64,000 bases of DNA, from NCBI GenBank assembly GCA_019843655.1, contig JACDQD010000005.1, forward strand, positions 9,761,575 through 9,825,574. The letters run 5' to 3'. Of this stretch, positions 14,409-61,733 are shown one piece after another (position 1 is the first letter of the stretch; every line of letters begins with the position of its first letter). This DNA is from Lethocerus indicus (taxonomy: Eukaryota; Arthropoda; Insecta; Hemiptera; Belostomatidae). Below the pieces are notes generated by a model, which was not told the DNA's origin, searched no databases, and was given only the letters and a program-made list of their open reading frames with translations. Made by a program: the position numbers and the translations under genes.

Positions 14409-15186
14409 TTATTGACATTCATACTGTTTTAACCAGGTGAGTCCCTCTTCTGTAGTTTTAATTGGTTTATATTCCAGCCCTATCCAACCATCATAGCCTA
14501 ATTTATGGAGCAGTTTGAAAATATAGCCGTAATTTATCTCTCCATCTGTGTTTGGCTCATTCCTATTTGGTACCTGAGCTATCTGAATATGACCGACAAG
14601 AGGTAGATATTGTTCAATATTTCGGGACAAGTTTCCCTTTAAAAACTGCAGGTGGAATACAGTCCAGCTGTAATTTCAAGTTTGGACTGGAAATGTCCTT
14701 TATAACTGATAGCGCACGTTCATAATCATTCATATAATAATTCGGAACTGAATACGGATTGATAGGCTCGATGAGTCCTGTAATGTTTTCTCTTTCCAGA
14801 CGTCGGACAGCTTCTCTGAGATTCCTCTCATAGATTTTATGGTTTTCCGTTACCGGCTCTGCAACTCTTCCCGACATAATGTGTATCCTGTCGCAATCTA
14901 ACGCCTTGGCGTACTCAATCGAAAGATTTAGACTTTCGGCAAATTCACTAGTTTTGTCGGGTAGGGCTGCGTACCCCAGATCGGTGCCCTTGTTGTAACT
15001 GTTTATTAGAACCTGTTTCAGTCCCAGTTCATCTTTGATTCTCCTTATGTCCTGAACGGGGTCCGAATAAGGGTTGGCACACTCGACGCCTCTGAACCCC
15101 GATTTGGCGGCCAGAGCGTATCTCTCCACCAGGCTAGATGTTTCTTGAAACATGAAGTTGAGATTCGCGCAAAATCTTAACGGCAT
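14409..15186 (-). CDS. HYI: Hydroxypyruvate isomerase-like protein, single frame break
   Basis: An intronless gene for a TIM-barrel sugar-phosphate isomerase/epimerase of the HYI (Drosophila Gip) family; in bacteria Hyi interconverts hydroxypyruvate and tartronate semialdehyde. I start it at MPLRFCANLNFMFQE (ATG 15184-15186), which matches the family N-terminus; the frame stays open 27 codons further upstream. Landmarks are GFRGVECANPY (about residues 30-40), RIHIMSGRV (100-108), GLIEPIN with the metal-binding Glu near 140, and, in a second frame, GHIQIAQVPNRNEP and the second catalytic Glu in GLEYKP. The two frames join near 14655-14661: after LQLD the first frame runs to a premature stop, while a shift of one base gives the conserved FHLQ and continues to TAA 14409-14411. 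One extra base therefore interrupts an otherwise undamaged gene of about 258 codons. A sequencing or assembly indel is the simplest cause; a young pseudogene is the alternative. Confidence 0.92.
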
Positions 15187-15520
15187 CACGATCCTGTAAC
15201 TAGAACCTTCTATCACATTTATTTCCTCACTTTCAATAAAGCACGCAACAACAGAAACAATCGACAAAATTAATCCTGTTTTTTTCTGATGTATTGAAAG
15301 GTAAACTAACCATCACTAGAGGAGGTTATCATAATGTTTTGATGAAGTTTAACCTTTTTTACTAAACCTAAATTCTGCCGCGACAATGATAGAAAAATAT
15401 CTGAATGAAATCAAATTTAAACAAAGAGAAAATATGCTCTTCTTATTTCTGATATTTTATTATATATGTTTATAATTATTTTATATAATTAATATTACGT
15501 CACTTATTTATTGAAAATCC

Positions 15521-15690
15521 GAACAAAACCGAACAAAACCGAACAAAACCGAACAAAACCAAACAAAACCAAACAAAACCAAACAAAACCAAACAAAACC
15601 AAACAAAACCAAACAAAACCAAACAAAACCAAACAAAACCAAACAAAACCAAACAAAACCAAACAAAACCAAACAAATTCAAACAAATCC
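15521..15690. repeat. 10-bp minisatellite, 17 units (AAACAAAACC)
   Basis: Four GAACAAAACC units, eleven AAACAAAACC units, then AAACAAATTC and AAACAAATCC. The penultimate unit is identical to the unit of the larger array at 16605-17025, so the two arrays are related. The phenylalanine/valine/leucine-rich and threonine/lysine/proline-rich reading frames across it are repeat artefacts. It abuts the dispersed repeat copy starting at 15693. Confidence 0.98.
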
Positions 15691-16604: not shown

Positions 16605-17025
16605 ACAAATTCAAACAAATTCAAACAAATTCAAACAAATTCAAACAAATTCAAACAAATTCAAACAAATTCAAACAAATTCAAACAAATTCAAACAAAT
16701 TCAAACAAATTCAAACAAATTCAAACAAATTCAAACAAATTCAAACAAATTCAAACAAATTCAAACAAATTCAAACAAATTCAAACAAATTCAAACAAAT
16801 TCAAACAAATTCAAACAAATTCAAACAAATTCAAACAAATTCAAACAAATTCAAACAAATTCAAACAAATTCAAACAAATTCAAACAAATTCAAACAAAT
16901 TCAAACAAATTCAAACAAATTCAAACAAATTCAAACAAATTCAAACAAATTCAAACAAATTCAAACAAATTCAAACAAATTCAAACAAATTCAAACAAAT
17001 TCAAACAAATTCAAACAAATTCAAA
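16605..17025. repeat. 10-bp minisatellite, 41 identical units (TCAAACAAAT)
   Basis: From 16611 to 17020 the sequence is 41 perfect copies of TCAAACAAAT, with partial units at both ends. Total identity implies very recent expansion or strong homogenisation. Each unit has an A-run repeating at about one helical turn. The NSNKFKQIQT-type open frame across it is an artefact of a period that lacks stops. Confidence 0.99.
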
Positions 17026-19669: not shown

Positions 19670-19809
19670 CTATATAGAGTCCCCTTCCCTATAGAGATCT
19701 CTTGATCCCTAATCCCTAATGATCGAAAAAGACAAGAAAACTTCCACGGTAATGTGAGGTGGCAGTGCAGGTTCCTCAAGAAACCGATATACGAAAGGCT
19801 AATAGACGA

Positions 19810-19880
19810 AAAAAGTTACTGAACAACCGAAACCGGTCTGGCAAAGGACCAGACCAGCGAGAAGAGACGGAAGGTCGAGA
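19810..19880 (+). mobile_element. Fragment of the palindromic hammerhead element
   Basis: Carries the right-arm signature CCGAAACCGGTCTGGCAAAG followed by ACCAGACCAGCGAGAAGAGA. The catalytic CTGAAGA and stem II are deleted or collapsed (CTGAACA), so no ribozyme remains. Confidence 0.7.
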
Positions 19881-20485
19881 TAGGTTCTGGAATCTCATAC
19901 CACCGTCATGTTTATCACAAGGACCATTCAGTACCATTCCGTAGGCTGTTACAGGGTGGTATTCGGACTCTGACAAACTTTCTGAATCCGACGGTGACCC
20001 GAGTTGATCAACAATTCTTAATCCTTTGTCATGCGTCACGTAGTGAACATTGATTCAAGCGTTGACATTAACTTCTTCCCAAGAATCTCTCAACGGGATG
20101 ATGCAATTCTTGAAATCTGTTCTGGGTTGCCAGTTTTTTAATCCATTCCAAGAAGTATTTTGCGCTGAATTTCCCCGGCGTAAGTGGACAATTGGAGACC
20201 GTACCAGACGTTGACCGAAAAAGACCGATTCACCGGATTAGTTGATGGATCTGCTTCACCTTTGTTCAGTCAAAAGATTGTCCTGATTAGAATTAACAAA
20301 GTCCGTGAAAAGAAGTATGCCAGTATAAAAAATATCCCTAATGATAATATTTTTTTTGTTATCGGTGCTGTATATTTTTCTAAATTACTTCCAATTGAGG
20401 GCAGTGGAGCGTTAGTTCGCGATAATTGTAATTTTCGCAATGGAAATAAGATTTTTTTTCGTCGTTTCGCCTTTGGGGCACCTTT

Positions 20486-20537: not shown

Positions 20538-20707
20538 GAAACTATTCCACAAAGTCCTTTTTATTTTCCTCAGCAAGGTATTGTAGAAGGTGTACTGATC
20601 GTAAGAATGGATCTTCTCTACTAAACAGACAGCTGTTTTTCCTACCGCATTGTGGATAAAGAGCTTTTGTTTCGGGAACTCTAAAAAGAAGAATAGTCCT
20701 AGTTTAA

Positions 20708-20935
20708 CAGCCTGTTTTGTGGTCTGCGAAGGGTTGGAATGACGTATATTTTACAGTGGATGTGGTCCACAGTACAAGTGACAGTGACAGTGCGTTGAGG
20801 ATGCCCGAAAGACATCCGAGTGGATGACCAAAAAAGTGATTAACACCGCTATTGAAGATGGCGAGCGGCCGAGCGGTCTGGCAAAGGACCGAACCAGCGA
20901 GAGGAGACGGGAACACACGAAATCAACTAGATCAG
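20708..20935 (+). mobile_element. Palindromic hammerhead element, degenerate copy
   Basis: Begins with the family end GCCTGTTTTGTGGTCTGCGA and GGGTTGGAAT. It continues through GTACAAGTGACAGTGACAGT and a decayed hammerhead at 20848-20882 (TTGAAGA, GAGCGG in place of the canonical CTGAAGA and GAAACCGG), then CGAACCAGCGAGAGGAGACG. The core substitutions should abolish self-cleavage. No clear target-site duplication. Confidence 0.75.
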
Positions 20936-21381: not shown

Positions 21382-24300
21382 ATGGCCGTCAGGAAAATTC
21401 GATTCGGTCAGTGCAGAATTTCAATCCAACGCAGAGTAAAACGAACGTTTCTTTCAGACAATAAGACAAAAATAATAAGAAATTGCGGTAATATATCACA
21501 ATTCAGATCTGGTGTTAATCAGCCAGAAATTCGAACCGACATAATTTCACTCATTTCGTCGGTAATATTTTCCATTTGCCACTTAATTAGGCCACTGTCG
21601 CAGAACTCATCATAAATATGGAAAGAAAATTATGACAAAAACAATACAAATATATGTGTACGTATAATAAATCAGAAAATACTGTTACCTAATAATAATA
21701 TCTTAACATAGAATAATGTGACGTAAAAAACGCACACATCACTGTTGCAGTCTTGTGTCTCCACTCTCGGGTTATACAACTCGATCAGTATGAACAACTA
21801 TAGCTGTACACTTCCTATTGACTATTTCATCATTGGGATATGGAGGGGCAGAAACGAAAAAGTATCGAAACTCAACAAGTGTTGCAACAACGGGCGGAAA
21901 AGGAAAGCTGTTTGTTTTCGGTTTAACGTAGGCAAGGCGTTTAATAATGATTCGGTAGACGCCGTCGATCATTTAAGTTTCGGGTTGTCGCAACGCGGAT
22001 ATTAAGTTTGTTTTATAACCGTTGCTGTGACAACCGTGCAAACGCCTACGCAACCGTCCTCGTTACACGATTTCAGTTCTTTATTCGGTTCGTCCTAAAT
22101 CTTATTGAAATGAACTATGTTTATTGCACAATCATCAATCTTATATGTTATATATGTATAGGTGCAAATCTAAGTACTGTCCTGATATGGTTTTCCTGAA
22201 TTGTTATTTATTCTAGACACTAGAACAAGTCGAGAAGACTGGATACGTGTACTACCTGGTTGCGTTATTAATGGAATGGTACTGACAACGGTTCGGGAAG
22301 CCGAAACCGGTCTGGGAAAAGACCAAATCGACGTTTGTTTAAGAGGGCAAGAATGTTCTGAACTCCTCGCGGACCATTTTAATGTATGATACGACGGTAA
22401 AAATAAAGGAGGCGTCTTAAATTATTCAAAAACATTTATGAGATATTAGCTCAGTGCGATTTTTCCGACATCATCTTAAGGGAAAAGTAATATTGAAAAA
22501 TTCTAGGAATAAATTTTCACGGGTTCGTGAAACATGCCGAACAATATCTTTAAATTAAATCGCGAGTTAGCGTCGGCTGATATTGTTGTAAATTGTCCCT
22601 TATCATAGAGGGGGGGGGGACAATAATTGTACCTTATTCGGTCACCGCATGTCGGCAACGTCGACCTGAAAAAATAGTAGTACCGAAAGTGTGGCAGTCG
22701 CTTAGAGATGGTGACCATTGTTTTAATCGTATTTTCGGGCCGTCATCAGAAATAAGAATTTCCCTACACATGACTGTCAGCGGAACTGGATTTGGTGAGT
22801 CGAAAAAAGAAATTCTATCTCTTGAAAAGATACAAATCCTGTACAAACAGAAACGGTGCAAATTTAGATACGGGGCAATACGTCTAGATGTATGCACAAA
22901 TGTAATAACGAAATATAATCGGTTGTAAGATAAGATAAAATTAACATTGAGTTTACCTAGGTTAACAATTCAACTGGCTCACGTCGTGACAATTCCGCAG
23001 AAGTAGGAGCATTTCTTAATGAAAACGCCAACTAGAGTAGTAAAATAATTAAATGTTATTTTTTCATAATAATAAGACACTATATTTGTTCTTGTATTGT
23101 AGCAGTTTTGTGACTGCAGACGTTCATCTGTTAATCAATGTGAGTTCATATAAAAGCAACATCTGTCGTAAGACTATATTAAAACAATTAACTGATCATA
23201 CCAGTAATCTCGGCTCATAAGTTGTGTCTTCCGGCGGTACGGAGTAATGCGAAGCCTAATTTGGCCAATTTCCTCAGTCTGTGTATTAATTTTCTCCTAT
23301 CGTGAACGCCAACACCAAGATAGCGTAGGACAGGATATTGTCCACCAATATCGGTGACCGCCCTATTAGTATTATGCTTTATTATCGTTGGAATTGCACG
23401 AACATTTATAAAATTGACGGATACGGGTCAACGATCCGCAGGCGTTACTTGAATATATAAATCAGAATGTTATTTATCGACATATATGAAGAACTAAGAT
23501 CATTTTAAATGAACCGTGTTTTGATGTTGGCACTGTAAAATCTCATCTAACTAAAACTGAACTCTACTATACTGTAGATTTCGCGTGTTTCGGCCTCCTC
23601 TCGCTCGTTTGGTCTTTTGCTAGACCGGTTTCGGCTGCTTGCCATCTTCAGTAGCGGTGTTAGTCAATTTTGGCACTGTCCACAGTACAAGTGGACACTG
23701 GCAGTGCAGTGAGGATGCCCGAAAGACATCCAAAGTGACAAAAGTGACTAACACCGCTACTGAAGATGGCGAGCAGCCGAAACCGGTCTAGCAAAAGACC
23801 AAACCAGCGAGAAGAGACAGAAACACGAGAATTCTAGAGTTCTCACAAAGCAGGTATGTAAACTGAACTCTACTATCTTCTGTCTTCACTCCATTATTTT
23901 GCCCTAAGCTAAACCACAGTTGAAAGCATTCATCCGTAAGAAATGGATTCCCGTGGGGAATGGCACTGAATTGTTTATGTTTTCATACGTTCGTACATGA
24001 GTCAAATACTCCCCTCTTGAAAGTGAAAATGGAAAATTGACTAAAAGTGACAAAAAATGACCAAAATTGACTGAAATTAACCCATATTGACTGAAATTGG
24101 ACGAAATTGAGCAAATGCGACCGAGAGTGACCGAAAGTGACCGAAACTAGTTACAGATCAACGAAGTAGGAGTAGGGACTTTATTAAAACTGGTAAACGG
24201 ATAAAGTATAACCCTCTTTCAAATTTCTGGCTCATCTCACTTTCCCCGCCCCTAGTAATTTTACAATTGTTATATGCAATACTAATAATGTATAATATAA

Positions 24301-27300: not shown

Positions 27301-30300
27301 TGTGCAAGTTCCAATTGAAGGGTTAATTATCTTAGATTTCGTGTCTTTCTGCCTCCTCTCGCTGGTTTGGTCTTTTGCTAAACCGGTTTCGGTTGCTCAC
27401 CATCCTCAGCGTTGTTAGTCACTTTGGCACTTTGGATGTATTTTGGGCATCCTCACTGCACTGCCAGTGTCCACTTGTGGTGTCTGTGGGTGGTTGTTGT
27501 TTGTCTTATTTGGGGTCTGGCATTACCAATCCAGCTAGAGGAGACAGAAACACACGATATCTAAGGTATTCCAACCTCTCGAAAACAGGTATTCTAAACT
27601 GGTTAATTATCTCCTTCCTGCACTCCCTTTATCGTGGTCATGAGCTGAAACTCATTCTTACTCACTACTACTTTGTCAGTCCACAAATTGAATCAAGTCC
27701 CGCCTTATATTCCGGGCTTGTATCCGGTTATTTATATATAAACTTATATTTGGAATAGTACTCTCCCAACATTCCATAATTTTACGCCCTTTTAGAGGTA
27801 GGCGGTAACATTTCTCCTGCTCGTTATCCACTTGGCTCCTCCTTGGTGGATTCTCTCTACGACTTGGATTCTCCTGCACTTGGCTGGGAAAAATCCGTTC
27901 TCTTTCGACCGTCTCTCTAGCTCATTGTTTCAGATAATTATTTTTGGTATTACAGAGGTCTGGGCAACTCGCCCTACAGGCTCGTAGCTAACGACCCGTC
28001 CAATCTCAGGGCAGCGCCTTTGGCGGCCAACGCGCCCCTGGTCGTACTCATACACGGATACACCGGCGACAAAGATTATTCTCCCAACATGGAACTGAGA
28101 CCAGGTAATTTACGTATGACCGTAATCAACTGTAGAAAAGGCTATTCGCCTCATGCAACAATAGTAATAATAATCCTTGGACTTAGGGAAGCCAAGTTGC
28201 AAACTGAAACAAAGGTGCTTCATCGGCAGACAGAAATTTTATTAATTCGAAGGCGGAAAATGGCCAGATTGATAAAACATTTTTAAGATCGCTATTTAGC
28301 GAGCACAAAGGACTGCCGACGGACGTCACGTACATGAATGTTTCGCTTATCGGCGCTTCAATGGAAAATCTTTTTTTCACCTTTGTGCACGAGGGAGCTT
28401 TAAATCAAACGCCGACAAATATTAACGAACTGAATTCTGATTGTTCATACGCATTCGTTATTCTTTATTTGCATTTTTTCCTTCAGTTAACTTTTCCTCC
28501 TTTACAATAGATTCAGCAATCCGTCGTACTGAAAAATGCACTGTCGGTTGCGTAACATTCATAGCATTCCTTTCGCACGACTTCGGTTACCCTGAGACAT
28601 AAAATACCGATGCCATTATTGATATATCTCTATTCGCTTGTCCGTTCCATCTAATAATACACCTCCTGACCTGTTTTACCAGTTTCGATTGATGAAGTTG
28701 TTCACGATGGTGAAACCTCTCCGAATAGTGTCCGAAATGTTAAACATTTCGTGGTTGTGAAATATATCACGGTATTTAGTCGTAACAATACTGTTGTTTT
28801 TTAAACGTGCATTTTACAATTCCCCGCCGTTAGCTTTCCTGCGAGCGGGCGATTACAACATCGTGAGCGTGGACTACAGCCCGTTGGCCAGGTCGCCCTG
28901 CTACGTCCAGGCGACGATGAACGTCCAGACGATCGGCAACTGTACGGCGCAGGTGCTCGGCTCGCTGTACTCCGCCCTGGCGTCCCAGCCGGGCGGCCCT
29001 CCCCCGGCGGCGACAAAGCAGAATACCCACGTCATCGGTTTCAGTCTCGGCGCCCACGTCGCCGGCGCTGTCGGCTCCATACTCCGTATGCCCTGGGTCA
29101 CAGGCCAGTTGCTATTCTCTGGTTTTCCCGTCTGTAAATGTAACGCGTCCATCTAATATGGTACCATCACATTAAACGAAAAGTATTAACTTTATTAAAT
29201 ACTGTAGGTTCGCGATGTTTCTGTCTCCTCTCGCCTGTTTGGTCTTTTGCTAGACCGGTTTCGGCTGCTCGCCATCTTCAGTAGCGGTGTTGGTCGCTGT
29301 TAGCACTTTGGGTGTTTTTTGGGCATCCTCACTGCACTGTCACTTTCACATGTACTGTCTAGCAAAGGACCAAACCGGCGAGAGGAGACAGAAACATCAC
29401 GAACCTACAGTATTCCAACCCCTCGCAGACCACAAAACAGGTATATCAACTTTATTAAAGTAAGCCCGGGCTTACGCAAATACGGGATACAAGTATTGGT
29501 CGCGCCCATTAGTATTATATTGCAGTAAATCAAGGCTTAATTATCACTAACTTCCGGTAGGATCGAGGTAATGCCGCGGGAAGAACCTCGGCTACTTGGT
29601 ACACCACCAGTAAAGGGTGGTTACCGGTGATACGGGAACAAATAAGTCGTGATCCCACTTTCAGGTATACAGATGACCCGGAGTTGATCTACTGTTCAGT
29701 CGGAAGCAGACCCGGCAAAAGGGCAAAAACCCTTCCGCCCGATCTGGCTCGGGGTCAACCCCCTGCTGCCCGAGGTTCTTCCCACAGTATTACGTACAAG
29801 ATACAAATAATTTTTATTACTATAAATACAAATATTATACGATACAACAACGGTATAAACAAATTGTGATTAGTGCATGTATTCCGGCCTATTGGCCTTA
29901 CTACATTTATATTCTTAAATATTATAATACATTATACATGAATTTTTTTACAATGTTGTTTTGCTAGTCGGGAAAATACACAATAAAAACCCGAGGACTT
30001 ACACTACACTCACTACATTCACTCGCACAAACACACACATTCGCTCACACACTTTGCACTGCACTTTGCACTTGCCACTTGGGTTCACTACACTGCTCGC
30101 GAAACTCGGTGTCGGTGCACTGATCACTGGGGCACTGGTGACAGTATACGACCGGTCGTATACCGTCGTTAGCACTATGCACTATAGGCACTTTAGCTGG
30201 CACATTCACAGCTTTCACTACACTGTTTCACTTTCACTTTGGTTGGGGGGTCTTCTAGCTCTGCGTGAGGACCCTCCTCCTTGTGGTACATCTTTTGGGT

Positions 30301-38917: not shown

Positions 38918-39064
38918 TTTTTTTAGGTTTCGTACGTTTCTGTTTCCTCTCGCTGGTTTGGTCTTTTGCTATTTTGGTCTTTTGACCAAACCAGCGAGAG
39001 GAGACAGGAACACACAGGAAACCTACGGTATTCCAAATCCCTCGCATACCACAAAACAGGTATT
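38918..39064 (+). mobile_element. Short palindromic element without ribozyme, 12-bp TSD
   Basis: A 147-bp copy whose arms meet directly: TCTCGCTGGTTTGGTCTTTT, a few bases, then GACCAAACCAGCGAGAGGAG. The hammerheads and centre are deleted, leaving a near-perfect hairpin. It is flanked by TTAAATTTGTAC (38906-38917) and TTAAACTTGTAC (39065-39076), one mismatch. The family tail CACAAAACAGGTATT is present. Confidence 0.85.
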
Positions 39065-39076
39065 TTAAACTTGTAC

Positions 39077-39953: not shown

Positions 39954-40259
39954 TTTAATATACCTGTTTTGTGGTCTGCGAGGAGTTGGAATACCGTAGA
40001 TTTCGTGTGTTTCTGTCTCCTCTCTCTGGTTTGGTCTTTTGCTTGCCCGGTTTCGGCCACTCGCCGAAAGCCGTCTGCTGTGAAACCGTTAGGTAGCAAA
40101 AGACCAACAACACTACAAGTGACAGTGACAGTGCAGTGAGGATGCCCGAACAACGTTCAAAGCGCCGAAAGTGACTAACACCGCTACCGATGATGGCGAG
40201 CAACCGGAACCGGTCTAGCAAAAGAACAAACCAGCGAGATGAGACACACAAAATCTATG
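39954..40259 (-). mobile_element. Palindromic hammerhead element, reverse orientation, 12-bp TSD
   Basis: A 306-bp copy bounded by AAATATATGTAT (39942-39953 and 40260-40271). The full family end is on the left (ACCTGTTTTGTGGTCTGCGA), so it is inverted relative to the copies at 23.6, 27.3 and 29.2 kb. The right arm keeps a degenerate ribozyme at 40183-40219. Confidence 0.88.
40183..40219 (+). ncRNA. Degenerate hammerhead motif
   Basis: GCTA and TAGC (stem I) and ACCGGT persist, but the core reads CCGATGA and GGAA instead of CTGANGA and GAAA. Activity is not expected. Confidence 0.5.
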
Positions 40260-40639
40260 AAATATATGTATATTTTTAAAGCCCTTCTTATTTCAGCAAT
40301 GTCTGATAGCAGGAACTGTTTTTGTTTGGAGTGTCCGGTTTGTTTGTATGTTGTACCTACCTACCTACATACCCACCTAGCTACTTACCTAGTCCCCTAG
40401 TCATGGTGCCAGGTTGACCAGTCCCTGTGCGGCGTGTGCCGGTCACGTGGCTGGACAAAGGAGGCCCTCCAGTTGACCGGTGGGGGTCGAACAATTGACC
40501 CGCTGACCACACAGCAGTGACCCCACTTAACACCCAGGGGTCAAACTTAATATAAACAGTGCACCCCCATCATAGTTATCGTCCTCTTCCCTAGCTTGTC
40601 GGACCCATTTCTTATTTTTTTCTTAAATTAATTATTATA

Positions 40640-40830
40640 GACTCGTTTTGTGGTCTGCGAGGGGTTGGAATACCGTAGATTTCGTGTGCTCCTGTCTCCT
40701 CTCGCCGGTTTGGTCCTTTGCTAGACCGGTTCGCCATCTTCAGTAGCGGTGTCAGTCACTTTTGTCACTTTGGACGTTTTTGGGCGTCCCCACCGCACTG
40801 TCACTGTCACTTGTACTGCCACAGTGCAAG
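40640..40830 (-). mobile_element. Single-arm copy of the hammerhead element
   Basis: Starts with CGTTTTGTGGTCTGCGAGGG and runs through the arm to GCACTGTCACTGTCACTTGT. A deletion joins ACCGGT directly to CGCCATCTTCAG (about 40720-40746), removing half of the ribozyme. No inverted partner arm or TSD was found. Confidence 0.8.
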
Positions 40831-43786: not shown

Positions 43787-43911
43787 AATAATTTATTATT
43801 ACTATTGTTTCAATTTATATTATAACTATTTCCATTATTATTCACCTAAGCCAGATTGAACGTATTTCCGCATTATGGTGCCTATTCAGTTATAATTTGT
43901 ACGGGTCGGTT
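43787..43911. repeat. 125-bp direct repeat flanking a hammerhead element (left)
   Basis: About 90% identical to 44296-44420 and in the same orientation; shared landmarks TATTCACCTAAGCCA, TTGAACGTATTTCCGCATTA and TATAATTTGTACGGGTC. The two copies directly abut the two ends of the element between them. Confidence 0.9.
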
Positions 43912-44295
43912 TAAAATACCTGTTTTGTGGTCTGCGTGGAGTTGGAATACCGTAGATTTCGTGTGTTTCTGTCTTCTCTCGCCGGTCTGGTCTTTTGCTA
44001 GACGACCGGTTTCGGCGGTAGCGGTGTTAGTCACTTTTGGTACTTTGGATGTTTTCGGGCATCCTCACTGTACTGTCACTGTCGCTTGTACTGTGTTGTT
44101 TGTTTTTCGTGTGTACATATGTGTCTTGTTATGTGTTTTTGGGGGGTGTTGTTCGGTCTTTGTCGGATTATCGGTCAAATATATATTTGATCACACAACT
44201 ATTAGGTTTCGAGTTCCAAATATATGACAGGAAACCTAGAGTTAGAAACACACGAAATCTACGGTATTCCAACCCCTCTAGACCAGGTATTCTAA
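43912..44295 (-). mobile_element. Longest palindromic element copy (384 bp), ribozyme deleted
   Basis: Left end TACCTGTTTTGTGGTCTGCG; the right end, ATCTACGGTATTCCAACCCC then GACCAGGTATTCTAAA, is nearly complete too. The centre (44095-44215, with TTTTTGGGGGGTGTTGTTCG and AATATATATTTGATCACACA) is the fullest in the window and matches the centre of the copy at 51.3 kb. In the hammerhead region GACCGGTTTCGGC joins straight to GGTAGCGGTG, so the CTGAAGA strand is lost. Confidence 0.85.
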
Positions 44296-44420
44296 AATAA
44301 TTTATTATTACTATTACTTCAATCAATATTATAAGTATTTCCTTTATTATTCACCTAAGCCATATTGAACGTATTTCCGCATTAAGGTGCCTATTCTGTT
44401 ATAATTTGTACGGGTCAGTT
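44296..44420. repeat. 125-bp direct repeat flanking a hammerhead element (right)
   Basis: Partner of 43787-43911. Far longer than the 12-17 bp target duplications of the other copies. Confidence 0.9.
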
Positions 44421-47481: not shown

Positions 47482-47965
47482 TTCTTTGTCTTATTTGGGT
47501 TCGGGGAGGAGCCGAATCCGGTCTAGCATAATACCAAACTAGCTAGAGGAGACAGAAACACACGATTTCTACGGTGTTTTAGTAGCCCGGTGTTTTAGTA
47601 ACCCTTCGGAGACCACAAAACAGGTATTCTAAACTGGGTAAGTATCTCTTTCCTGCATTCCCTTTATCGTGGTCATAAGCTGAAACTCATTCTTACTCAC
47701 TACTACTTTGTCAGTCCACAACTTGAATCAAGTCTCGCCTTATATTCCGGACTTGTATCCGGTTATTTATATATAAGCTTATATTTAGGATAGTACTCTC
47801 TCAACATTCCATAATGTTACGCCCTTTTAGACATAGGCGGCAACATTTCTCCTGCTCGTTATTTATTAGCGGGGCACTTGGCTCGGAAAAATAGCCCGTC
47901 GATAAATTCGGACCCAATTTTCATTCTGTTACTAACTTCATTGTCCAATTATTTTTATATTTTAG
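47482..47965 (+). repeat. Duplicate of lipase-intron segment 27497-27955
   Basis: Carries the right half of a hammerhead element (GAGCCGAATCCGGTCTAGCA, ribozyme core decayed) and intron-derived sequence ending in AATTATTTTTATATTTTAG, matching the region just before lipase exon 3. No lipase exon follows, so no second lipase gene is indicated here. Confidence 0.82.
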
Positions 47966-50170: not shown

Positions 50171-51212
50171 TTTTCCTGTTGATCGAAAATTTATTGATAA
50201 AAATTTACTTTCAGTAATCTAGTTAATCGGTGCAGGTGCACTCAAGGAACGATTTTTGTGAAACTAGCGCCCCCCAGAGTGTGGTGCGGAAATGTACATA
50301 ACTAAAGTTCGTTGGGCGCACTTGCACCGATAAACTAGCGTCCCCTGAGGGTGGTGCGGAAATGTACTTAACTAAAGTTCGTTGAGTGCACAAGCACCGC
50401 GCACGCGATAAACTAGCGCCCCACTGAGGGTGGTGCGAATGCACTTAACTAAAGTTCGTTGGGTCCACTTGCACCGATAAACTAGCGCCCCTGAGGGTGG
50501 TGCGGAAATGTATAACTAAAGTTCGTTGGGTCCACTTTGCACCGATAAACTAGCGCCCCCTGAGGGTGGTGCGGAAATGTACTTAACTAAAGTTCGTTGG
50601 GTGCACTTGCACCGATAAACTAGCGCCCCCTGAGGGTGGTGCGGAAATGTACTTAACTAAAGTTCGTTGGGTGCACTTTGACCGATAAACTAGCGCCCCC
50701 TGAGGGTGGTGCGGAAATGTACTTAACTAAAGTTCGTTGGGTGCACTTTTGACGATAAACTAGCGCCCCTGAGGGTGGTGCGGAAATGTACTTAACTAAA
50801 GTTCGTTGGGTGCACTTTTGACGATAAACTAGCGCCCCTGAGGGTGGTGCGGAAATGTACTTAACTAAAGTTCGTTGGGTGCACTTTGACCGATAAACTA
50901 GCGCCCCCTGAGGGTGGTGCGGAAATGTACTTAACTAAAGTTCGTTGGGTGCACTTTGACCGATAAACTAGCGCCCCCTGAGGGTGGTGCGGAAATGTAC
51001 TTAACTAAAGTTCGTTGGGTACCGATAAACTAGCGCCCCCTGAGGGTGGTGCGGAAATGTACTTAACTAAAGTTCGTTGGGTACCGATAAACTAGCGCCC
51101 CCTGAGGGTGGTGCGGAAATGTACTTAACTAAAGTTCGTTGGATGCACTTGCACTACTAAGCGCATTACTAAGAATAAACTTTTGTCAATAAATTTTGGA
51201 TCAACAGGAAGA
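50171..51212. mobile_element. TIR element enclosing a 13-unit tandem array
   Basis: The ends are inverted repeats: left 50171-50218 (TTTTCCTGTTGATCGAAAAT... TCAGTAAT) and right 51165-51212 (ATTACTAAGAATAAACTTTT... AACAGGAAGA), about 85% complementary over 48 bp, with weaker complementarity continuing inward to about 50248. Between them lies the array. There is no transposase, and the TSD is unclear. The layout resembles foldback or tandem-repeat-bearing MITEs; the superfamily cannot be assigned. Confidence 0.8.
50240..51145. repeat. 13-unit satellite (62-78 bp) with CTCF-like motif per unit
   Basis: Thirteen AACTAGCG landmarks recur between 50264 and 51089, each followed by GAGGGTGGTGCGG and CTTAACTAAAGTTCGTTGGG or close variants. 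Units 1-4 are diverged; units 5-13 are nearly identical except for TGCACTT length changes. On the minus strand most units read CAGGGGGCGCTA (some with one G fewer), the 3' half of the CTCF consensus. Confidence 0.93.
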
Positions 51213-51416
51213 CAATTTTGGATCCTAAATATACAATACCAGATAGGTTTCGTGTCATATATTTGAAACCATGTATTGAACTATACAGAACCTAATAGTT
51301 GTGACCAGTTGTGTGATCAAATATACATTTGAACGCTATTTCGACAAAGACTTAAGACGATTAAAAAAATCCCTCCCAACCCAAATAACACAAACAACAT
51401 CCCCCAAAAACATAAG

Positions 51417-51421
<5 letters not shown>

Positions 51422-51459
<38 letters not shown>
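51422..51459. repeat. (TA)n microsatellite inside a hammerhead element
   Basis: About 19 TA units followed by CACACACACA. Confidence 0.95.
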
Positions 51460-51469
<10 letters not shown>

Positions 51470-51558
51470 ACAAACAGACAACCACCACAGTACAAATGGC
51501 AGTGACAGTGCAATGAGGATACTCAAAAAACATCCAAAGTGCCAAAGTGACTAACACC

Positions 51559-51595
51559 GCTACTGAAGATGGTGAGCGGCCGAAACCGGTCTACC
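51559..51595 (+). ncRNA. Hammerhead motif, core intact, stem I mutated
   Basis: GCTA, CTGAAGA, GGT-GAGCG-GCC (one G-U pair), GAAA, ACCGGT, C, then TACC instead of TAGC. Catalytic residues are complete; stem I is weakened. Confidence 0.65.
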
Positions 51596-52267
51596 AAAGG
51601 ACCAAACCGGCGAGAGGACACAGAAACACGAAATCTACGGTATTGGGAAACACTGCTTTGTGGTGATTCCAGGAAAACATTTTCCTCTTAAATCGTATTA
51701 TTTCGTACTAAATAAAATTCTCCGAATATCCCAGCAGCACCGAGTATTAATAATTATAATTAAATACTTTCGTACAGCATTTATTAACATCTTAATTCTT
51801 ACAGGACATTTTTCAGAATATATTTCGCCTTATATTTTAATAAAGGGCAAAATCTATTCTCCCTTTTGGGAATATTGACATTAAATTATGAGAGTGCGAA
51901 TTCTTTAATACTTTTTCCAGTCTGGCCCTGTTTCCAAATTGCGCCAACCCGGAGAAACAAAGGCTTAAAAGGAGTAGTAATTCAATTTCTGAGAAGGCCC
52001 CCGGATATATTATTACTTTGCCCTTCCGGTTGGTTTGACTCGGATTAAATTTCGTTTCTTTGAGATTCACCCCCAGAGGAGAGGCGGACCAGATTGTTTC
52101 TGTAAATATTGTTATGTATTCCAAAATAAAATAAAACGGAATCCGAATAACGGAGAGACTGCTCTACGTTCAATCAACAATTTTCGTGCTTGGTTAACGT
52201 TTGTTGTCGGAGGTTTTTTTTAAATAATTAAATCTATGTAAATTTCGCTCAAAAATATATCCAGTGT

Positions 52268-61612: not shown

Positions 61613-61733
61613 TTTAGACTACCTGCTTTGTGGTCTGCGAGGGGTTGGAATACCGTAGATTTCGTGTGTTTCTGTCTCCTCTAGCTGGTTTGGTCTTTTG
61701 CTAGCAAAAGACAGAAACACATGAAATCTACGG
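61613..61733 (-). mobile_element. Short palindromic element, 13-bp TSD, ribozyme deleted
   Basis: A 121-bp copy bounded by exact TAATAAAAATTCG repeats (61600-61612, 61734-61746). Left: CTACCTGCTTTGTGGTCTGC through TTTGGTCTTTTGCTAG; right: GCAAAAGACAGAAACACATG then AAATCTACGG. The arms fold directly on each other. Confidence 0.9.

Follow-up and report, generated by a model that had tools for sequence, protein, structure and literature searches.

The window analysed here is a 64,000-nt stretch of the Lethocerus indicus genome (contig JACDQD010000005.1 of assembly GCA_019843655.1, positions 9,761,575 to 9,825,574 of the forward strand), and it contains, at 23571..23859, a palindromic unit of 289 bp which is discussed below as the terminus of a Penelope-like element (PLE). 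The inverted arms of this focal unit (23571-23677 and 23734-23840) are 107 nt long, 91% complementary and separated by a gap of 56 nt, and the whole is enclosed by an exact 17-bp direct repeat (23554-23570 and 23860-23876) that is far above chance, since the left and right flanks of different copies of the family share at most 12 bp (1722 pairs). Both the inverted repeat and the exact target duplication had been pointed out in a preliminary description made from the sequence alone and are confirmed, and the unit was also rightly called a retroposon insertion, given that it combines a target duplication with a retrotransposon terminus. There is no separate loop between the arms, the intervening 56 nt being the 5' part of a longer right arm (profile match 23673-23861), in which ACAGTACAAG, a frequent inner end of the family, starts at 23682. 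The features of the locus are listed below, with S1 and S2 denoting the two outer ends of the family, which lie 40 nt apart.

23554..23570, no strand: left copy of the 17-bp target site duplication, AAACTGAACTCTACTAT
23571..23677, minus strand: left arm, presumed tail-less cDNA arm; outer end at S1 (reverse complement ...CTACAGT), inner end at about 23677
23619..23655, minus strand: hammerhead motif read directly, predicted cut between 23623 and 23622, core letters intact
23682..23859, plus strand: right arm, presumed longer cDNA arm; outer end at S2
23756..23792, plus strand: hammerhead motif read directly, predicted cut between 23788 and 23789, core letters compared across copies
23766..23837, plus strand: start of the element's reading frame
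23841..23859, plus strand: incomplete remainder of the 40-nt tail between S1 and S2; tail positions 18-40 matched
23860..23876, no strand: right copy of the target site duplication

Hammerhead motifs and Penelope-like anatomy

The plus-strand motif (stem I GCTA/TAGC, core CTGAAGA and GAA, stem II GGC/GCC, stem III ACCGGT) has the conserved core letters and stems I-III of a type I hammerhead with a predicted cut at GGTC^TAGC, and a hammerhead on each strand, as put forward in the preliminary description, can indeed be read directly from the core letters (plus 23756-23792, minus 23655-23619). The claim of a full type I consensus holds for the core letters and the stems but is slightly too strong, since one extra unpaired U is found between stem II and the core adenosine, which we take to be A9 in the usual numbering, and since stem III is a loopless palindrome. 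The covariance-model search by which the preliminary description had itself proposed that its claim be refuted came out against it, as Rfam gave zero hammerhead matches at gathering thresholds, and as none of the 43 matches obtained in the window with E up to 10 was a hammerhead, these being mainly microRNA models on inverted or low-complexity stretches together with a few snoRNA or other models, all below their gathering scores. When a 431-bp stretch was searched alone, the RAGATH-1-hammerhead model reached 15.1 bits on the plus arm, where its cut-off is 56.3 (E 7.7), and folds of the 47-nt motifs were no better than those of shuffled sequences (z -1.2 and -1.0). Because the curated covariance models give no match at threshold, the term hammerhead motif is used throughout. 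Across copies the core is intact in 88 of the 145 arms that span it, and mean substitution is 0.059 in the core, 0.084 in the remaining motif and 0.067 downstream; the lower value of the core reflects decay from a source with an intact core and is no proof of selection.

The ATG of the element lies inside the motif, where it is made up of A9 and the next two letters, and measured from it on a hand-made composite of copies the ribozyme cut is found at 23 nt, S1 at 76 nt and S2 at 116 nt, the 40 nt from S1 to S2 constituting the tail. In the focal copy the frame runs for 23 codons from the ATG and then meets a stop, but it is open to S2 in other copies, and in the composite all 38 codons from ATG to S2 are open; four genomic places match these 38 codons at 100% and free of stops. 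A motif overlapping the start of the open reading frame (ORF), two outer ends 40 nt apart, inverted pseudo-long terminal repeats (pLTRs) of which one has a tail, and a target duplication at AT-rich targets are all traits of a PLE terminus, and the anatomy agrees point by point with that of Anolis and rotifer elements; the preliminary description was right in naming PLEs. The pLTRs of PLEs carry minimal type I hammerheads (PMC6155905, PMC7761336; these two, PMC3846280, PMC8969392 and PMC7229834 are cited throughout for extracts of their text). In the Poseidon element PAc of Anolis carolinensis the ORF starts at stem II with C3 and G8 preceding the start codon, the cut follows the ATG by 26 nt (23 nt here), an internal start of reverse transcription lies 111-118 nt into the ORF (116 here), targets are likewise AT-rich, and the optional tail of PLEs, 30-40 bp long (40 nt here), is the stretch between two start sites (PMC11167929). 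By analogy, S1 and S2 are presumed to be start sites of reverse transcription. The unit is best explained as a pLTR-only insertion of a PLE, and the occurrence of the hammerhead on both strands merely by both arms having copied the same sense RNA, and to this reading as a whole, including the two-sided priming considered below, we assign a probability of roughly 0.7.

Outer ends, inner ends and sister arms

Copies were compared in two sets of loci, those from outside the window being designated by L and a number. The first comprises 42 palindromes, with 7 from the window, 6 from random stretches and 29 found where the genome matches the focal unit or in the flanks of such matches; most of its unit-selected loci were chosen by likeness to the focal palindrome, and their inner ends are accordingly biased toward it. 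Window 43910-44298 (both ends S2) and a second pair in L002 at 2357-2500 stand outside the 42, and L001, L004 and L030 were left out as copies of others. The second, tail-selected set consists of 66 loci picked only by similarity to two 92-nt tail-and-body pieces, after removal of four duplicates (L056, L059, L060, L107) from 70 fetched loci, and it under-samples arms too short for the ribozyme cut. Loci already collected (window 39952, L008, L029/L030, L086) and recognised haplotig twins were not fetched anew, and L088-L090 served only for inspection of locus structure, outside the counts.

The outer ends are fixed, and usually only one of them has a tail. At a tail score threshold of 17, which is the 99% point of 71 shuffled stretches, exactly one arm is tailed in 36 of the 42 palindromes, two are in 5 and none in 1; the weaker end scores 17-22 in four of the five double-tailed cases, and the fifth, L042, looks truly double. 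Target duplications of at least 9 bp accompany 21 of the 42 palindromes as compared with 18 of 1722 flank pairs from different loci, and they range from 9 to 17 bp and are 81-82% AT against 63% for the window (length and composition from a list of the 21 compiled by hand). Nineteen of these 21 palindromes are single-tailed by score, and in the remaining two, 39952 and L043, the weaker end has S1 directly next to the duplication. In the tail-selected set, 50 of the 66 loci have an inverted partner arm, the outer end of which is S1 in 41, S2 in 1 and unclassifiable in 8, and where a duplication of at least 9 bp is present the partner end is S1 in 23 of 24 cases.

The inner ends, on the other hand, are variable and staggered. 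Of 36 unit-selected or window loci, listed by hand with six of the 42 omitted because an end is decayed or not S1/S2 (L021 twice, L025, the second L027, L042 and L044), 22 have the longer inward extension in the tail-less arm and 14 in the tailed one, and in the 32 tail-selected loci outside the spacer lineage described below the tail-less arm is the longer in 16, the tailed arm in 11, and the two are equal in 5. An extreme stagger is seen in the window copy at 20701-20927, where the tailed arm measures 51 nt and the tail-less one 168 nt. A copied arm would lie inside its template, and the tailed arm, being the longer outward, should then always be the longer inward as well; this is not so, and neither arm is generally copied from the other. 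Since the arms are staggered, two reverse transcription events would generally be needed, one for each start site. The 39 inner junctions vary between loci as judged by eye, often with filler (those of L040 and L041 are similar, not equal), and because they differ the palindromes look like the products of separate events.

Sister arms are more alike than shuffled partners, as they differ by 0.0895 as opposed to 0.0986 in the 37 pairs of the tail-selected set (a value reached in 1 of 5000 shuffles), by 0.081 against 0.102 in 34 other pairs with decayed loci dropped (0 of 5000), and by 0.0945 against 0.118 when the decayed loci are included (n=37, 0 of 5000). The clearest of six variable sites is +44, with 63 TT, 4 CT and 7 CC pairs. 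On account of this likeness both arms were probably templated by the same RNA or by RNAs of one source.

Inner ends also accumulate near the predicted cut, with 13 of 86 ends outside the spacer lineage at -4..+1 where 3.2 were expected (from 19 ends in the 36 positions -40..-5; Poisson P 3e-5, for a range chosen after seeing the data). A sharp peak exactly at the cut (position 0) was not obtained, the ends being spread over -7..+1. Joins at the cut are exemplified by the copy at 61613-61733, the arms of which meet at TTTTGCTAGCAAAA, and by an arm of the copy at 38924-39071 that stops at TAGC. The cluster is suggestive of cleaved RNA having been used as template, but the self-complementary ACCGGT and CTAG may attract joins and microhomology may account for part of it, and it should also be mentioned that no RNA reads ending at the hammerhead cut of PAc have been found (PMC11167929). 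A further cluster is seen at ACAGTACAAG, upstream of the cut by 105-107 nt, with 20 of 107 ends in the whole tail-selected set and, without the spacer lineage, 9 of 86 ends at -108..-104; nine ends at -129 mark the limit of the probe. The ACAGTACAAG cluster is perhaps the 5' end of the RNA.

Proposed two-sided priming and alternative explanations

In the reading that we favour, the palindromes are pLTR-only PLE insertions made by two cDNAs primed from both strands of a staggered cut. The element protein, supplied from elsewhere, would cleave the two strands of an AT-rich target at staggered positions, and each free 3' end would prime its own minus-strand cDNA inside the start of the coding sequence, with S1 as the starting point of one cDNA and S2 as that of the other. 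Both cDNAs would then be extended in the direction of the 5' end on RNA of a common source and would terminate independently, and their ends would be joined head to head, often with short filler, whereupon fill-in of the stagger would give rise to the target duplication. Purified Anolis PLE protein does cut and extend both target strands in vitro, and this two-strand extension is not linked to inverted pLTRs in the account of PAc (PMC11167929).

A number of observations weigh against this reading. No PLE protein gene was found among 150 scored of 30,931 first-look candidates for the 38 codons, the open frames there being 43-179 aa long. Half of the 42 palindromes are without a duplication of at least 9 bp, and 16 of the 66 tail-selected loci have no partner arm in the fetched stretch. 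The rule of one S1 and one S2 is broken by L074 (with a 12-bp duplication), L042, L088 and perhaps window 43910-44298, which are S2/S2, and by L044, which is S1/S1, and it requires an extra asymmetry, since a free choice of start would leave about half of the loci S1/S1 or S2/S2 and since no difference between top and bottom strand in start site was seen with the Anolis protein (PMC11167929); an asymmetric dimer on one RNA would give different starts. The sharing of variants by sister arms is a small effect in the tail-selected set, and some of the variable sites are weakly concordant, the weakest being +1 (57 AA, 11 AG, 2 GG). Furthermore, 12 of the 66 tail-selected loci (L051, L061, L062, L068, L071, L072, L075, L076, L080, L109, L110 and L111) have in common a spacer of some 100 nt that separates the arms.

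The left junction of these spacer loci, GTTGT followed by AGTGTATTCAG, is the same in 8 of the 12 if single substitutions are allowed, five of the twelve carry the tail on one side and seven on the opposite side, the flanks differ, and five have target duplications of their own of 10-14 bp. The lineage is best read as a re-mobilised palindrome, a minority in the family, and it thus provides one real instance of the palindrome as a moving unit, which is what the preliminary description had envisaged for the focal locus. That the palindrome is itself mobile in general, as a hairpin-forming non-autonomous element with a hammerhead on the transcript of either strand, is unlikely, given that the outer ends lie at presumed start sites of reverse transcription and that the focal copy is without the shared spacer, for which no match was found in the window. 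Because its inner junction is absent, by eye, among the other 38 junctions, the focal palindrome is most simply understood as having arisen in the making of one insertion and not as a unit moving in palindromic form. We consider it equally improbable that one arm is copied from the other by self-priming or fold-back, either through snap-back of the first cDNA or from an antisense RNA (Arkhipova and colleagues 2013); self-priming has been proposed for palindromes at head-to-head pLTR junctions and is the route favoured in that account (PMC3846280). Short inverted filler is visible by eye at some junctions, for instance in L034 and L048, and the nested arms of 25 of 68 loci (14/36 and 11/32) are compatible with such a route, but at 22 of the 36 unit-selected or window loci and at 16 of the 32 tail-selected loci outside the spacer lineage the tailed arm is missing upstream sequence found in the tail-less arm, while the tail is present only in the tailed arm, and at those loci neither arm can therefore have templated the whole of the other. 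Fold-back is in other words contradicted as a general mechanism, and two-sided priming is favoured over it as the general route because the arms are staggered; it could act at single loci, including the focal one, where the tailed arm is the longer.

The remaining alternatives are less probable by some distance. An animal non-LTR retrozyme, i.e. a small retroelement with a circular RNA and a type I hammerhead, would be in line with the small size, the motif and the many copies, and one locus (L069:19-516) is a direct tandem of three copies with a spacing of about 182 bp, hammerhead to S2, in a retrozyme-like arrangement. Metazoan non-LTR retrozymes are likewise non-autonomous, but as described they form direct tandems with canonical hammerheads and circular RNAs (PMC7229834), whereas the pairs here are mostly inverted (in the tail-selected set 50 loci out of 66), the hammerhead is of the minimal kind and the ends agree with PLE start sites, which makes this origin very doubtful. 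Even less credible is a fold-back DNA transposon or miniature inverted-repeat transposable element (MITE), which inverted repeats with a target duplication might bring to mind; instead of a fixed short duplication and matching termini we find duplications varying from 9 to 17 bp, arm ends made unequal by the 40-nt tail on one of them, variable inner ends, and the start of a coding frame within the arms. Just as improbable is the adjoining by chance of two separate single-arm insertions, for although single arms exist and the duplications are AT-rich like PLE targets, one duplication encloses both arms in 21 of 42 palindromes, the one-tail rule is obeyed and variants are common to sister arms; for the loci with target duplications this explanation is contradicted.

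The insertions favoured here, pLTR pairs made by two-sided priming, have close relatives. The statement in the preliminary description that the palindrome is not a standard form is not supported, since inverted pLTRs with an optional single tail and a target duplication are described for Penelope in the extracts of PMC3846280, and inverted pLTRs are also mentioned in those of PMC8969392. Penelope of Adineta vaga resembles the present family in its inverted pLTRs arranged head to head, one of which has a 31-bp tail, its target duplications of 8-10 bp and a pLTR containing the first ORF codons, but its pairs adjoin an ORF of about 840 codons and its copy number is low (PMC3846280), whereas the present pairs are free-standing and numerous, and no PLE gene was seen among the 38-codon matches scored. 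Poseidon PAc differs in being a vertebrate element of known protein, with no strand difference in start site as against mostly one start of each kind here (PMC11167929). The minimal hammerheads of PLEs and Terminons are similarly of type I, with a reduced stem III, and are thought to act as dimers (PMC7761336, PMC6155905); in the present case they occur in inverted pairs, have the extra unpaired U before stem II and are predicted motifs. The kind, inverted PLE pLTRs with hammerheads, is in other words already known, and it is the pLTR-only, high-copy form that is new to us. A literature search returned no link of two-sided priming to inverted pLTRs, but its coverage did not extend to key original papers on the hammerheads and the structure of PLEs, and priority is not claimed.

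Genomic occurrence and significance

The window contains the arm about 12 times (13 places at E below 1e-5, with the focal one counted), and a 23-nt piece of it has 10 window matches at up to 3 mismatches, two of which are the focal arms, against 0 expected. The other copies in the window are as follows.

19735..19900, plus strand: single arm
20701..20927, no strand: palindromic copy with very unequal arms, tailed left and tail-less right; no clear target duplication (5 bp)
22297..22332, plus strand: short arm fragment
27333..27600, no strand: palindromic copy, 12-bp target duplication GGTTAATTATCT
29200..29447, no strand: palindromic copy, 12-bp target duplication AACTTTATTAAA; tailed arm starts near the ribozyme cut
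38924..39071, no strand: palindromic copy with short arms, tail-less arm ending at the ribozyme cut; 6-bp repeat only
39954..40259, no strand: palindromic copy, 12-bp target duplication AAATATATGTAT
40634..40828, minus strand: single tailed arm
43910..44298, no strand: arm extending far upstream and an inverted second tailed piece 113 nt off (S2/S2 exception or two events)
47504..47635, plus strand: single tailed arm
51308..51644, plus strand: arm with the longest upstream part, adjoining a 62-70 bp satellite
61613..61733, no strand: short palindromic copy, 13-bp target duplication TAATAAAAATTCG; arms join at the ribozyme cut sequence

In the 427-Mb genome there are 4692 first-look candidates for the focal unit, 40 of which were scored. 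Twenty stretches of 10 kb at round coordinates held nine insertions with E below 1e-5, and extrapolation from these gives, by our own arithmetic, roughly 20,000 copies; the genome probably contains thousands. Matches on contigs C99, C100, C123, C133 and C144 of G000 pair with equal-score matches on other contigs, and three such pairs have an identical 150-nt stretch in common; because of this pairing the data suggest that the assembly retains haplotigs.

The satellite of 62-70 bp occupies window 50261-51154, just upstream of the arm at 51308, and the same satellite is found near an arm in L020, L053, L081, L085, L093 and L108, and in L025 at a distance of about 3.4 kb from one. Since it occurs near arms at several loci, it is apparently part of longer forms of the element. 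A degenerate 10-bp repeat (AAAATTGACT / AAAGTGACCG) at 24033-24146, some 170 bp downstream of the focal unit, resembles the AAAAGTGACTAAC stretch of the arm. Perfect or near-perfect tandem arrays of 10 bp are furthermore found at 16605-17025 (ACAAATTCAA x 42) and 15522-15687 (AACAAAACCA x 17). As for genes, an exon-like piece of a lipase (PF00151) lies on the plus strand at 28761-29156, and one of a hydroxypyruvate isomerase (PF01261) on the minus strand at 14614-15312, the closest named matches of the latter being insect hydroxypyruvate isomerases of at most 57% identity.

The insertion route of PLEs, their frequent head-to-head ends and the role of the hammerhead are named as open questions in the extracts of PMC3846280, and the many two-arm insertions of this genome can be read as a record of the reaction in their outer ends, inner ends and target duplications; this record, and the evidence on the origin of the palindromes, are new to us. 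The rule of one S1 and one S2 constitutes a new constraint on the integration complex. A more general and quite tentative notion is that every normal PLE integration might be two-sided, with an asymmetric complex starting at S1 on one strand and at S2 on the other and with hammerhead-cut RNA among its templates. If this is true, cDNA ends at the cut would be genomic footprints of ribozyme activity in vivo, and if the cut-site cluster holds in a full catalogue of copies, it would amount to in vivo evidence for cleavage.

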